37,740 bases of DNA from Alphaproteobacteria bacterium (GTDB taxonomy: Bacteria > Pseudomonadota > Alphaproteobacteria > Rs-D84): contig SUUQ01000002.1 in NCBI GenBank assembly GCA_015062445.1, positions 87,051-124,790 on the forward strand, read 5' to 3'. How positions within the stretch are numbered: the stretch's first letter is position 1; the number at the start of each line of letters is the position of its first letter. Under the pieces are notes generated by a model. The model saw only the letters and a list, made by a program, of their open reading frames with translations. It did not search any database and was not told where the DNA came from. The position numbers were made by a program, and so were the translations under genes. This document shows, in pieces, positions 6,760-25,954 of the stretch.

Positions 6760-8628
6760 CTATTCCCACTGGGCAACCAGGCGTATATTCCCAGGTTCCG
6801 TCCATGTATATGTGCCACCAGATGCAACCGTGATGCCCGTGTCATTGCCAAATGCATCTGTGATTTTATACCCAACAAACGTTGTACCCGCCGCCGCTGT
6901 GCACACCGTGGTGGACGGGGTAATGGTGCCACCAAACGTGGCATTAATATAACTGCTGACTGTGGTGCCATTATCACAAATATATGCACCGCCGTATACG
7001 TTTGCCGTCCATTGCGCAACCATCGTTTTATCCGTAGTGTACGTATAACTGTACGAACCACCTTTGCTGATACTGGTTGAATCTATCTTCCATCCGCTGA
7101 AATAATACCCAGGTTTATAACAGGTACCCGCACGATATGGGCCGCTGTAATACATTTTATACCCTACGGCATGCGATTCGGGCGGTGTGCCGGTCGCACC
7201 ATCACCACACGAATATGACAGTGTGTACTGGGCGGGCGGTTCGGGCGATGTCTGCCGGCCATCGTCTGACCATATTGCACGCAGCCGAACATTCGTGCCC
7301 CATGCCCATGTGGTCGATGAACCGGGGGTCAACGTTTGTCCCGTTTCATTACCATACATATCCAACACCTGATACCCTTGCAATGTTTGACCATATGGAT
7401 TAACGCATGACAAACTGGATGACGACTTGGGGGTAAAATTCGAATTATATGTACCGGTGGCATAGTCCGAACTGACGTACGTACTGTCCGAACAATAATT
7501 GCATAAATATGGTGCACCGTATGCGTTTGCACTCCATTGGGCCACCATCGTCTTATCGGTGGTGTATGTATAACTGTACGAACCGCCTTTGCTGATACTG
7601 GTTGAATCTATCTTCCATCCGCTGAAATAATACCCAGGTTTATAACAGGTACCCGCACGATATGGGCCTGTATAGTACAACTTATACCGAACAGTATGCG
7701 ATTCGGGTGGTGTGCCGGTCGCACCATCACCACACGAATATGACAATGTGTACTGGGCGGGCGGTTCGGGCGATGTCTGCCGGCCATCGTCTGACCATAT
7801 TGCACGCAGCCGAACATTCCCCGGCCATGCCCATTTGGTTGATTTGCCCGGGGCTAATTGTTCCCCCGTGTCATCGCCAAACATATCGGAAACAACATAA
7901 TATTCCAATGTCTGACCATATGGATTAACGCATGACAAACTGGATGTCGCCTTGGGGGTAAAATTCGAATTATATGTACCGGTGGCATAGTCCGAACTGA
8001 CGTACGTACTGTCCGAACAATAATTGCATAAATACGCACCACCGTATGCATTTGCCGTCCATGTCGCAACCATCGTTTTATCCGATGTGTACGTATAACT
8101 GTATGCCGTACCGGTGGTCAATGATGTCGAATCAATTTTCCATCCGCCAAATGTATACCCTGGATTTATACAACCCGCCGCACCATCAGGGCGACTGAAC
8201 AATTCCCCCCACCCTATTTCACGCGATTCGGGCGGTGTGCCGGTCGCACCATCACCACAACTGTACGACAATGTGTATGTCGTGGGACACAGTTGCCCCG
8301 AATTCGAATTTGCATGGTATATTGCATCATTATAACTGACATTCAATGTGCCATCTGATTGGCCACTTATCAAATCTGCATAACAAACTGTGTCGCCGTT
8401 TTTAATGTGAATGGCTGGAAATGTTCCCTGGGTCGCAAACAGGTCAAATCGATATCCGTTGGATGTATGTAAACCGGTCACGCCACCGCCGCACAGTTCC
8501 ATACATTCACCGTTGGCATTGCGAACCAAATTCGCCGCCGGCCCCAAATATGCCGTGGTACCATCTGGACATGCCGCATGCACAGACATCGGAACCAAAA
8601 TAAATAACAACAAAAATTTATGACTCAT
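6760..8628 (-). CDS. Secreted Cys-rich Listeria-Bacteroides (InlB-B-like) repeat protein, copy 1
   Basis: 622 residues from the ATG at 8628, chosen over a TTG at 8643 because it begins the signal peptide MSHKFLLLFILVPMSVHA and has GGGGGA upstream. The N-terminal domain (CPDGTTAYLGP to NSNSGQLCPTT) is nearly identical to the 25251 paralogue. Then come about six 70-90-residue repeats of the form YTLSYSCGDGATGTPPES, GYYFSGWKIDSTS, DKTMVAQW, alternating with Cys repeats (YLCNYCSDSTYV to VRLRAIW). At DNA level the long unit recurs with a 525-bp period (for example 7225 and 7750). No anchor or transmembrane segment is visible, so it is likely secreted or held by partners. It precedes the DGR target in the same unit. 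The ligand or adhesive function is unknown; InlB-B repeats occur in many surface proteins. Confidence 0.85.
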   Translation of the reverse strand: MSHKFLLLFILVPMSVHAACPDGTTAYLGPAANLVRNANGECMELCGGGVTGLHTSNGYRFDLFATQGTFPAIHIKNGDTVCYADLISGQSDGTLNVSYNDAIYHANSNSGQLCPTTYTLSYSCGDGATGTPPESREIGWGELFSRPDGAAGCINPGYTFGGWKIDSTSLTTGTAYSYTYTSDKTMVATWTANAYGGAYLCNYCSDSTYVSSDYATGTYNSNFTPKATSSLSCVNPYGQTLEYYVVSDMFGDDTGEQLAPGKSTKWAWPGNVRLRAIWSDDGRQTSPEPPAQYTLSYSCGDGATGTPPESHTVRYKLYYTGPYRAGTCYKPGYYFSGWKIDSTSISKGGSYSYTYTTDKTMVAQWSANAYGAPYLCNYCSDSTYVSSDYATGTYNSNFTPKSSSSLSCVNPYGQTLQGYQVLDMYGNETGQTLTPGSSTTWAWGTNVRLRAIWSDDGRQTSPEPPAQYTLSYSCGDGATGTPPESHAVGYKMYYSGPYRAGTCYKPGYYFSGWKIDSTSISKGGSYSYTYTTDKTMVAQWTANVYGGAYICDNGTTVSSYINATFGGTITPSTTVCTAAAGTTFVGYKITDAFGNDTGITVASGGTYTWTEPGNIRLVAQWE

Positions 8629-8644
8629 TCCACATTCCCCCAAT

Positions 8645-8736
8645 CAAAAAACCGCCCACATTCAGACGGTCAGGAGGTTGGAAACAATCCGATGAATTGT
8701 GCCGCTTATTCAATATATTCGCAAGCCCTCCTGACC
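8645..8736 (-). promoter_or_regulatory. Structured leader with terminator-like hairpin before the repeat-protein gene, copy 1
   Basis: In the minus-strand RNA, GGTCAGGAGG (8727-8736) pairs with CCTCCTGACC (8668-8677), enclosing about 49 nt with short internal stems. The 3' strand overlaps by 3 nt the start of a terminator-like hairpin (ACCGTC...GGGCGGT, 8651-8670) followed by TTTTTT, which ends about 17 nt before the start codon. The geometry fits a mutually exclusive attenuator. A second leader with the same architecture but different sequence precedes the paralogue. Confidence 0.55.
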
Positions 8737-8876
8737 ACAATCAGCCAGGAGTTTTCTTGTCGTCTGGTCAACTATCAAATACAAAAACGCACCAAACGGC
8801 GCGTCCATATTTTCTTTCCCAGACGCATCGGCACGGGTTTCCACACCCCATCAGCAGAACACCTGCTGACACAACG

Positions 8877-8905
8877 ATTATACAATATATTTATTTTTAT
8901 TCCAA
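8877..8905 (-). promoter_or_regulatory. Predicted promoter of the repeat-protein/DGR-target unit
   Basis: TTGGAA (8900-8905), 17 bp, TATAAT (8877-8882) on the minus strand. The transcript would have a leader of about 240 nt before 8628. The stretch 8737-8870 of that leader holds no gene I can support. Confidence 0.55.
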
Positions 8906-23427: not shown

Positions 23428-25251
23428 TTATTCCCACAGGGCAACCAAACGTATGTTCCCAGGTACCGTCCATGTCCATGATGCCCCCGGCGAAATAACA
23501 ATACCCGTGTCATTACCCAATGCATCCAACACGCGATACCCCGCAAATGTCGCACCATCCGCCGCGGTGCATACCGTGCCGCTGGGGCTGATACTGTTGC
23601 CAAAGGTGGCATTAACATAACTGCTGTTTGTTGCACCGTTATTACATAAATACGCACCACCATATGCGTTTGCCGTCCATTGTGCAACCATCGTTTTATC
23701 GGTGGTGTAATTATATGTGTAATACACACCCTTAGATAACGATGTTGAATCTATCTTCCAGCCACTAACGGAATAGCCCGGCTTACGACATGTACCAACA
23801 TCGTATGGTGGTGTGTACATTTCACCATTGGCAATCTGTTTTGATTCCGGTGCTATGCCAGTCGCACCATCACCACAACTGTACGACAATGTGTATTTTG
23901 TACTGACCTCTGGTTCTGACCACATCGCACGCAACTGAATATTCCCCGGCCACGACCATGTGGTTGATTGCCCCGGGGTTAACTGAACACCTGCTTCATC
24001 ACCATATACATCCAACACCTGGTATCCTAACAATGTCTGATTAAACGGATTTTCACACGATAAACTGGATTTTGACGTAAAACTGCCACCATAATTTGCA
24101 GTTACATAATCTGAATTTGTAAATGGACTGCCTGGACAATAATTACACAAATACGGTGCACCGTATGCGTTTGCCGTCCATTGTGCAACCATCGTTTTAT
24201 CGGTGGTATAATTATATGAATAATATTGCCCCTTGGTTAATGATGCGGAATCTATCTTCCACCCACTGATGGAATACCCCGGCTTACGGCACGTTCCTGC
24301 ATTATGGGGTGGCGTATATGTTTCACCATTGGCAATCTGTTTTGATTCTGGTGGTGTGCCGGTCGCACCATCGCCACAACTGTATGACAATGTGTATTTT
24401 GTCACAGTACTGACCCCTGGTTCTGACCACATCGCACGCAACTGAACATTCCCCGGCCACGACCATGTGGTTGTTTGTCCTGGGGTTAACTGAACACCTG
24501 TTTCATCACCATATACATCCAACACCTGGTATCCTAACAATGTCTGATTAAACGGATTTTCACACGATAAACTGGATTTTGACGTAAAACTGCCACCATA
24601 ATTTACATTTACATAATCTGAATTTGTAAATGGACTGCCTGGACAATAATTACATAAATACGGTGCACCGTATGCGTTTGCACGCCATTGGGCCACCATC
24701 GTTTTATCGGTGGTATAATTATATGAATAATATTGTCCTTTGGTTAATGACGTGGAATCTATCTTCCACCCACTGATGGAATACCCCGGCTTACGGCATG
24801 TACCAACATCGTATGGTGGGGTGTACATATCCCCCCACCCCATTTCATGCGATTCTGGCGGTGTGCCGGTCGCACCATCGCCACAACTGTATGACAATGT
24901 GTATGTCGTGGGACACAGTTGCCCCGAATTCGAATTTGCATGGTATATTGCATCATTATAACTGACATTCAATGTGCCGTCTGATTGACCACTTATCAAA
25001 TCTGCATAGCAAACTGTGTCGCCGTTTTTAATGTGAATGGCTGGAAATGTTCCCTGGGTCGCAAACAGGTCAAATCGATATCCGTTGGATGTATGTAAAC
25101 CGGTCACGCCACCGCCGCACAACTCAACACAGTCGCCATTCGCATTGCGATAACGGGTTGATTCCGGCCCCAAATATGCCGTGGTACCATCTGGGCATAC
25201 CGCGTGTACAGACATCGGTATAATACACAATAATAAAAATTTACATTTCAT
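23428..25251 (-). CDS. Secreted Cys-rich Listeria-Bacteroides (InlB-B-like) repeat protein, copy 2
   Basis: 607 residues from the ATG at 25251 (MKCKFLLLCIIPMSVHA signal peptide), which has GGGGG about 9 nt upstream, matching copy 1; longer in-frame starts at 25269 and 25257 are less well placed. The N-terminal domain is almost identical to copy 1, even at DNA level (about 24900-25120 versus 8280-8500). Repeats alternate YTLSYSCGDGATG, GYSISGWKIDS, YNYTTDKTMVAQW with YLCNYCPGSPFTNSDYV, LGYQVLDVYGDE, LRAMW. The long unit has a 507-bp period (24202 and 24709). Probably secreted or surface-bound; no anchor is seen. First gene of a unit with the VR2 target. Confidence 0.85.
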   Translation of the reverse strand: MKCKFLLLCIIPMSVHAVCPDGTTAYLGPESTRYRNANGDCVELCGGGVTGLHTSNGYRFDLFATQGTFPAIHIKNGDTVCYADLISGQSDGTLNVSYNDAIYHANSNSGQLCPTTYTLSYSCGDGATGTPPESHEMGWGDMYTPPYDVGTCRKPGYSISGWKIDSTSLTKGQYYSYNYTTDKTMVAQWRANAYGAPYLCNYCPGSPFTNSDYVNVNYGGSFTSKSSLSCENPFNQTLLGYQVLDVYGDETGVQLTPGQTTTWSWPGNVQLRAMWSEPGVSTVTKYTLSYSCGDGATGTPPESKQIANGETYTPPHNAGTCRKPGYSISGWKIDSASLTKGQYYSYNYTTDKTMVAQWTANAYGAPYLCNYCPGSPFTNSDYVTANYGGSFTSKSSLSCENPFNQTLLGYQVLDVYGDEAGVQLTPGQSTTWSWPGNIQLRAMWSEPEVSTKYTLSYSCGDGATGIAPESKQIANGEMYTPPYDVGTCRKPGYSVSGWKIDSTSLSKGVYYTYNYTTDKTMVAQWTANAYGGAYLCNNGATNSSYVNATFGNSISPSGTVCTAADGATFAGYRVLDALGNDTGIVISPGASWTWTVPGNIRLVALWE

Positions 25252-25267
25252 CCCCATACCCCCAATC

Positions 25268-25380
25268 AAAAAACCGCCCGTTTTTAACGGCGGTCGGGGA
25301 ATTCAAAAATCATAAAAAGCAATGACCCTGTTGGTCTTTCACATTTAATGCGTATTATATACACCAACAGTCCCCCGACC
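25268..25380 (-). promoter_or_regulatory. Structured leader with terminator-like hairpin, copy 2
   Basis: In the minus-strand RNA, GGTCGGGG (25373-25380) pairs with CCCCGACC (25292-25299). Directly inside, CTGTTGGT (25363-25370) pairs with ACCAACAG (25328-25335). The outer 3' strand overlaps by 3 nt a terminator-like hairpin (25273-25294) followed by TTTTTT, just before GATTGGGGG and the start codon. The architecture matches 8645-8736 although the sequences differ. Confidence 0.55.
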
Positions 25381-25493
25381 ATACTGTCAGGGTTACAAAA
25401 CAGTGCAGCCGACACCGCATTTTCTATTTAACGATGCATAACTGCACCGGCTTTTTATGGGTTTTTGAAGACCCGAACCGAAGTTCACTCATA

Positions 25494-25549: not shown

Positions 25550-25954
25550 TTACGCCAATACACCATTGGCCTGGACAATCAGTTTAATTAAATCATCTAC
25601 TTTTTTCTGTCCCATTTTTTGCCCCAGTTTATCCTGCACCCCCTGAATATTTTTATTAATTTGCTGAAATGTTTTCATTCCCAACTTGGTCGGCATTAAA
25701 ACAACACTGCGTCCATCATCAGGGGACGGCACACGCAAAATCATCCCTGCCTTCACCAACGATGTTAAATTTGCACTTATCATTGCCCTGGATACGTTCA
25801 GTTGCATTGCCAACTGTGCGGGTGTATGCACACCTGGCACCATACACATTTGTGCCAGCACCCGCACATCACTGAAACGAATCGCCAGATTATCCAGCGC
25901 ATTCATATACGCACGACAAAATTGTAAAATTGCAAAATGATTCATATTCGACAT
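25550..25954 (-). CDS. MarR-family transcriptional regulator
   Basis: A 134-residue winged helix-turn-helix protein of MarR size. The recognition helix region is TPAQLAMQLNVSRAMISANL (about 56-75), followed by TSLVKAGMILRVPSPDDGRS and VVLMPTKLGMK, the characteristic wing (D-D-G-R-S then L-T-x-x-G). The flanking helices would form the dimer interface. GGAT precedes the ATG. The upstream palindromes (25973-26001) overlap its own -10, so it is probably autorepressed. The nearest plausible regulon is the surface-protein unit or the efflux operon downstream on the same strand; MarR proteins often control efflux. Confidence 0.88.
   Translation of the reverse strand: MSNMNHFAILQFCRAYMNALDNLAIRFSDVRVLAQMCMVPGVHTPAQLAMQLNVSRAMISANLTSLVKAGMILRVPSPDDGRSVVLMPTKLGMKTFQQINKNIQGVQDKLGQKMGQKKVDDLIKLIVQANGVLA

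Follow-up and report, generated by a model that had tools for sequence, protein, structure and literature searches.

Attenuator-like leader RNAs before surface-protein genes of gut Alphaproteobacteria, a probable switch class related to sRNA-Xcc1

Two leaders in the window, the whole 37,740-nucleotide stretch of alphaproteobacterial DNA that was analysed, are probably cis-acting transcription-attenuation switches of a single structured RNA class. The structure of the leaders, their alternative pairings, the overlap with a terminator and the position before genes all emerge from sequence comparison. The leaders belong to a large, previously unannotated RNA group found before surface-protein genes in gut Alphaproteobacteria, with up to about 20 copies per genome, that is related to the Rfam family RF02221 (sRNA-Xcc1).

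Organisation of the two window leaders

Both leaders are on the minus strand, each before one of two paralogous secreted-protein genes. Their features, with the basis for each call in brackets where one applies, are as follows.

Upstream leader and gene
8877..8905, minus strand: promoter-like site, TTGGAA-17-TATAAT (consensus scan)
8851..8869, minus strand: 5' hairpin H1, UCAGCAG/CUGCUGA (sequence; family covariation)
8835..8849, minus strand: 5' hairpin H2, GGG...CCC (sequence; family alignment)
8744..8751, minus strand: strand A, CUCCUGGC, pairing with 8735-8728 (sequence; family A:B pairing test)
8668..8736, minus strand: core RNA element, short and divergent, with strand B at 8736-8727 and strand C at 8677-8668 (model R1, fold)
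8736-8727 / 8677-8668, minus strand: P1 stem of 10 bp, GGUCAGGAGG / CCUCCUGACC (sequence)
8646..8671, minus strand: terminator GACCGUCU...GGGCGGUU, stem about 8671-8650, T6 at 8651-8646 (sequence)
8645-8637, minus strand: GATTGGGGG (sequence)
6760..8628, minus strand: gene for a 622-aa secreted repeat protein (signal peptide recognised by eye)

Downstream leader and gene
25459..25486, minus strand: 5' hairpins H1, GAAC-UUCG-GUUC (25486-25475), and H2, GGGUCUUCAAAAACCC (25474-25459) (sequence; family alignment)
25386..25392, minus strand: strand A, CCCUGAC, pairing with 25379-25373 (sequence, family A:B test, minimum-energy fold)
25292..25380, minus strand: core RNA element with P1-P4, strand B at 25380-25371 and strand C at 25301-25292 (model R1, RF02221, fold)
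25380-25371 / 25301-25292, minus strand: P1 stem of 10 bp including one G-U pair, GGUCGGGGGA / UUCCCCGACC
25268..25295, minus strand: terminator, stem about 25295-25272, T6 at 25273-25268 (sequence, fold)
25267-25259, minus strand: GATTGGGGG (sequence)
23428..25251, minus strand: gene for a 607-aa secreted repeat protein, paralogue of 6760-8628

An earlier, sequence-only reading of this DNA had described a long-range stem of 8–10 bp whose 3' strand runs by 3 nt into a terminator hairpin with a T6 run. In both leaders this stem is the 10-bp P1, and the last nucleotides of its 3' strand, strand C, are common to P1 and the terminator (ACC, or GACC if a G-U pair is counted). The T-run had been placed 15–20 nt before the start codon and a shared motif after it; the measured distances are 17 nt in the upstream leader (ATG at 8628) and 16 nt in the downstream leader (ATG at 25251), with GATTGGGGG following the T-run in each. 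The 20-mer GGCGGTTTTTTGATTGGGGG has two occurrences against 0.01 expected. Folded alone, the P1 domains have z-scores of -3.8 (upstream) and -4.0 (downstream), with none of 200 shuffles as good.

Absent from that description was a third strand, A, which lies directly 5' of P1 in both leaders. Strand A pairs with strand B, the 5' strand of P1, and A:B and P1 are therefore mutually exclusive. Strands A, B and C of the upstream leader (CUCCUGGC, GGUCAGGAGG and CCUCCUGACC) all depart jointly from the consensus. The promoter-like site of this leader has 10 of 12 consensus matches, where 0.8 such sites are expected by chance in the region; TATAAT-like boxes recur at the corresponding place in many family members.

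The two proteins share 70% identity, and a third paralogue with the same leader is present on another contig of the same genome. The window paralogues are 88% identical over their first 330 coding nucleotides, against 53% over the leader elements, as if the leader had been exchanged or were fast-evolving. A Pfam search of both proteins returned a sub-threshold GATA match on the second only, which was judged to be spurious. The genome is about 1.05 Mb, and the named genomes closest to it are alphaproteobacterial assemblies from the hindgut of sheep and roe deer.

Three further features were noted. At 8637-8620 of the window, an ATG in a different frame (AUG UGG AAU GAG UCA UAA) opens a possible five-codon upstream ORF that overlaps the start of the upstream gene. 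A GC-rich inverted repeat at 25815-25868, 5' of the downstream unit, scores 15.5 bits (E 0.3) with the core model and is probably a chance match. On another contig of the window's own genome, a short palindromic unit, CCTGGGTCCCGTGGNCNAGCCACGGGATGACA, is repeated in intergenic sequence near a GIY-YIG nuclease-like ORF; the unit is also seen at one other locus examined.

A structured RNA family with many copies per genome

Blastn with the whole leader of the downstream gene hits 99 of 156 genomes of the genus, in many cases at several places. A direct search with the terminator pattern is defeated by divergence within the family and matches the window's own genome alone; the relatives' copies were reached by blastn with the leader, followed by a covariance model. 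The aligned leaders have one common fold, in which P1 (GUCGGGGRG / YYCCCCGAC) surrounds P2/P3 and P4. P2 has an internal loop, UAUANAANA / AAAG, with P3 as its cap, and P4 is followed by a UUUUGAAC-like joint. In the core, 94.4% of the cells are paired, against 84.8% in shuffles, and the covariation score is 0.359, against 0.172 when shuffled (0/500), collapsing when the structure is slid by one column. When pairs are ranked by APC-corrected mutual information over 104 copies, each of the top 13 belongs to the predicted structure, in an alignment that was fitted to the model and so leans the result towards it; no pair outside the structure, such as a pseudoknot would give, is among these 13.

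The covariance model R1 was built from the core, with the downstream window element among its building sequences. A search for further copies had been suggested from the window alone; with R1, every one of the 15 genomes of the genus that were searched in depth yields 2–20 copies of the core, the window's own genome 14. Across the order, 173 of 201 genomes have at least one copy, as do 17 of 23 genera, with at most 22 candidates per genome scored. Copies within the window's own genome are diverged, at a median identity of 0.64. R1 scores 92.4 bits on 25292-25380, a sequence used in building it, and 21.7 bits (E 0.014, filters off) on 8668-8736, in which the inner domain is shortened. The window pair thus consists of one strong and one weak family member. 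The earlier view that the leaders share architecture and not sequence holds for the pair itself, given the 53% identity of their elements, but not beyond it, as the downstream leader is a clear member of the RNA family by sequence. At the Rfam gathering score, only tRNAs are found in the window.

Three competing strands and a terminator

Complementarity of strand A to B, directly 5' of P1, is general in the family, with 93% of leaders scoring at least 15 compared to 28% with shuffled upstream sequence. When strands are swapped between leaders, the A:B score falls from 18.56 to 17.60 (sd 0.16) and that of B:C from 25.1 to 22.3 (sd 0.16), the true values being beyond all swaps in both cases. Each pairing is therefore matched inside its own leader. 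The terminator stem begins in the last nucleotides of P1/strand C in 105 of 108 leaders, and its tail has at least four T in 104 of 108. The selection for an attenuation switch that had been proposed from the two leaders is well supported by this comparison, through a structure conserved over about 100 leaders, matched A:B and B:C pairings, and the sharing of bases between terminator and P1.

The predicted energies of the two states, A:B plus terminator versus P1, differ on average by -0.8 kcal/mol (sd 4.9). With A included, the minimum-energy fold of the downstream leader is A:B plus the terminator, and its core alone folds as P1-P4; the upstream leader is predicted to favour P1 even with A included. 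Pairing of strand C with the ribosome-binding site was also considered. It is weak, at 12.24 versus 11.96 when swapped (sd 0.13, largest swapped value 12.31), and is not claimed.

The 5' hairpins

Near the predicted transcript start are two adjacent hairpins, H1 (GAAUCCAAAGGGAUUUGGGUUC-like, often retaining an apical GGGA) and H2 (GGGGCUGUCGAAAGCCC-like), which have covariation of their own (0.489 versus 0.224). A third hairpin, recognised by eye, is usually present between these and strand A. In layout, H1 and H2 are like the put RNAs of phage HK022, a cis-acting hairpin pair that likewise lies close to the start of the transcript and before a terminator, and that works on RNA polymerase. H1-H2, perhaps with the core, could act in the same manner as a processive antitermination or stabilising leader, with polymerase passing the terminator constitutively or under control and the A, B and C strands only tuning folding. 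The covariation of H1 and H2, their position, and the terminator that follows in nearly all copies fit this explanation. Antitermination alone would leave the rest of the leader unexplained, including the within-leader matching of A:B and B:C and the bases shared by P1 and the terminator, and in the RF02221 relatives the core occurs where polymerase has no terminator to pass. One NusG-domain match was found in each of eight genomes searched for a second, specialised NusG. There is thus no RfaH/LoaP-like partner in the genomes tested, which argues against antitermination of the RfaH/LoaP-dependent type. Antitermination is the best of the alternatives to the attenuation switch, yet an unlikely one.

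Genes preceded by the leaders

Each of the 108 distinct copies is followed by an ORF on its own strand, which starts at a median of 47 nt past P1. The predicted products are mostly secreted proteins or lipoproteins. Among those ORFs of at least 120 aa, 78 of 95 have a hydrophobic signal-like N-terminal segment, compared with 51 of 102 other ORFs of the same stretches (p 1.6e-6), as judged by a crude and permissive heuristic. As read off the sequences, the products look like secreted Cys-rich proteins, autotransporter-like proteins, lipoproteins, and glycosyltransferase-like and restriction-modification-like proteins. In other alphaproteobacterial families the same A-B-C-terminator layout is found before genes resembling autotransporter, outer-membrane, pseudopilin and glycan genes. 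A further subtype, with the loop GUAUGUCCAG and without a clear terminator, is present at five loci in larger alphaproteobacterial genomes, before other kinds of genes that include those for DprA-like and HTH-looking proteins.

Relationship to RF02221 (sRNA-Xcc1)

At permissive thresholds, the RF02221 model scores at best 48.3 bits on the leaders, under its gathering cut-off of 53, and 36.5 bits on the downstream leader of the window. By score the leaders are therefore outside this family, but they match positions 1-87 of its model end to end and so have the same structure. In the reverse search, R1 matches 16 of 29 RF02221 loci at the identical place, 15 of the 29 with E <0.01 (best E 2.9e-9), and 5 of 6 phage loci. 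In both groups P1 surrounds P2, which has an internal loop of the UAUACAA type, as well as P3 and P4; a UUUYURA joint leads into the P1 3' strand, and a same-strand ORF follows closely. RF02221 is present in 58 of 398 genomes sampled from the phylum, with most of the copies inspected located 30–55 nt before such an ORF. The Pfam domains of these ORFs are Bro-N, P22 antirepressor N-domain (P22_AR_N), KilA-N and Rha. In phage records (Escherichia, Pasteurella, Mannheimia, Acinetobacter, Vibrio and Moraxella) a gene starts close 3' of the element in 6 of 6, annotated as antirepressor or KilA-N in 4 of 6.

The leaders described here differ in having strand A, an intrinsic terminator and the 5' hairpins, and in preceding surface and accessory genes rather than phage antirepressors. 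When the RF02221 loci were checked, strand A was not found beyond chance and almost no intrinsic terminators were present. The two groups thus have a common core and different expression platforms, and the core has some function besides the gating of the terminator seen here. RF02221 is filed in Rfam as an sRNA gene, while its place before antirepressor-type genes suggests a cis leader.

The sRNA designation raises the question of whether the leaders instead release a stable RNA through termination at the T-run, which would act elsewhere in trans while read-through keeps the gene expressed at a low, constant rate. RF02221 was cloned from Xanthomonas as an 88-nt RNA with both ends mapped (PMC2996969), it is termed trans-acting in the title of Chen 2011 as cited in PMC12444791, and all seven homologues in Xylella were detected as transcripts (PMC12189769). 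Against this, 108 of 108 copies are closely followed, at a near-constant distance, by a same-strand ORF, and RF02221 copies also precede one, which a free RNA would not require; conservation is in the structure and switch strands, not in a long exposed seed. A trans-acting role for the leaders is accordingly improbable.

RF02221 is reported 5' of symE in Xanthomonas integron cassettes (PMC12444791), and it is also carried by plasmids and phages. Together with the many copies per small genome, and the window genes that are alike at their start behind dissimilar leaders, this could indicate a dispersed mobile or recombination element, such as a repeat or attC-like site, that happens to carry the fold and the terminator. 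The copies are, however, old and diverged, each closely precedes an ORF on that ORF's strand, and compensatory changes are present throughout, making this very improbable.

A model for the attenuation switch

From these comparisons we infer the co-transcriptional order of events, which state is ON, the binding of a signal, and termination itself. Transcription would start at a promoter about 240 nt 5' of the gene, and the two 5' hairpins would be made first. Strands A and then B would emerge, at which point an A:B hairpin can form. Once the core (P2, P3, P4 and strand C) has emerged, C could displace A to form P1 (B:C). P1 would then take the ACC at the base of the terminator, weakening it, so that polymerase reads into the gene. 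If A:B persists, C would be left free, the full terminator could form, and transcription would stop before the start codon. Folding energies, from which the order and the ON state were derived, vary by leader, with P1 favoured in the upstream one and A:B in the downstream one. Against the switch, P1 and the terminator overlap by only 3–4 nt, and the terminator might therefore form beside a P1 that is partly open.

A ligand or RNA-binding protein would probably tip the balance at the internal loop UAUANAANA facing AAAG, together with P4 and the UUUGAAC joint. Two states of similar energy would also suit an RNA thermometer, in which P1 or A:B melts with temperature and gates the terminator or ribosome site without a ligand. 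The unpaired bases conserved in the P2/P3 loop and in the joint before the P1 3' strand, some of which RF02221 also has in distant bacteria, suggest instead that a ligand or protein is recognised, and a thermometer is highly unlikely.

The attenuation switch proposed here resembles a terminator-type riboswitch, in that the 5' leader has a conserved structured domain and, on comparative grounds, pairings that exclude each other are coupled to an intrinsic terminator immediately 5' of the start codon. It differs in that the competing strand A is 5' of the domain, not between domain and terminator, and that up to about 20 copies precede unlike genes in a 1 Mb genome; the ligand is putative.

Significance

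No Rfam family is over its cut-off at these leaders, and a literature search in which subscription journals were thinly covered returned no description of an antirepressor leader or surface-gene leader of this kind. A broader interpretation, offered tentatively, is that the leaders are a widespread, undescribed cis-regulatory RNA class, possibly a riboswitch or protein-sensing leader. Its three-strand A/B/C switch may gate surface-protein, glycan and restriction genes in gut Alphaproteobacteria, and sRNA-Xcc1 may be a stripped-down form that controls phage antirepressors, with one fold and a shared signal serving bacterial and phage accessory genes. If so, small-genome gut Alphaproteobacteria would run an envelope regulon through one RNA switch with up to about 20 copies per genome, an unusual scale for a structured leader. 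The sRNA-Xcc1, in the literature a virulence-linked trans-acting sRNA, would instead be a leader that precedes phage antirepressor genes and integron genes, giving a concrete handle on their induction.
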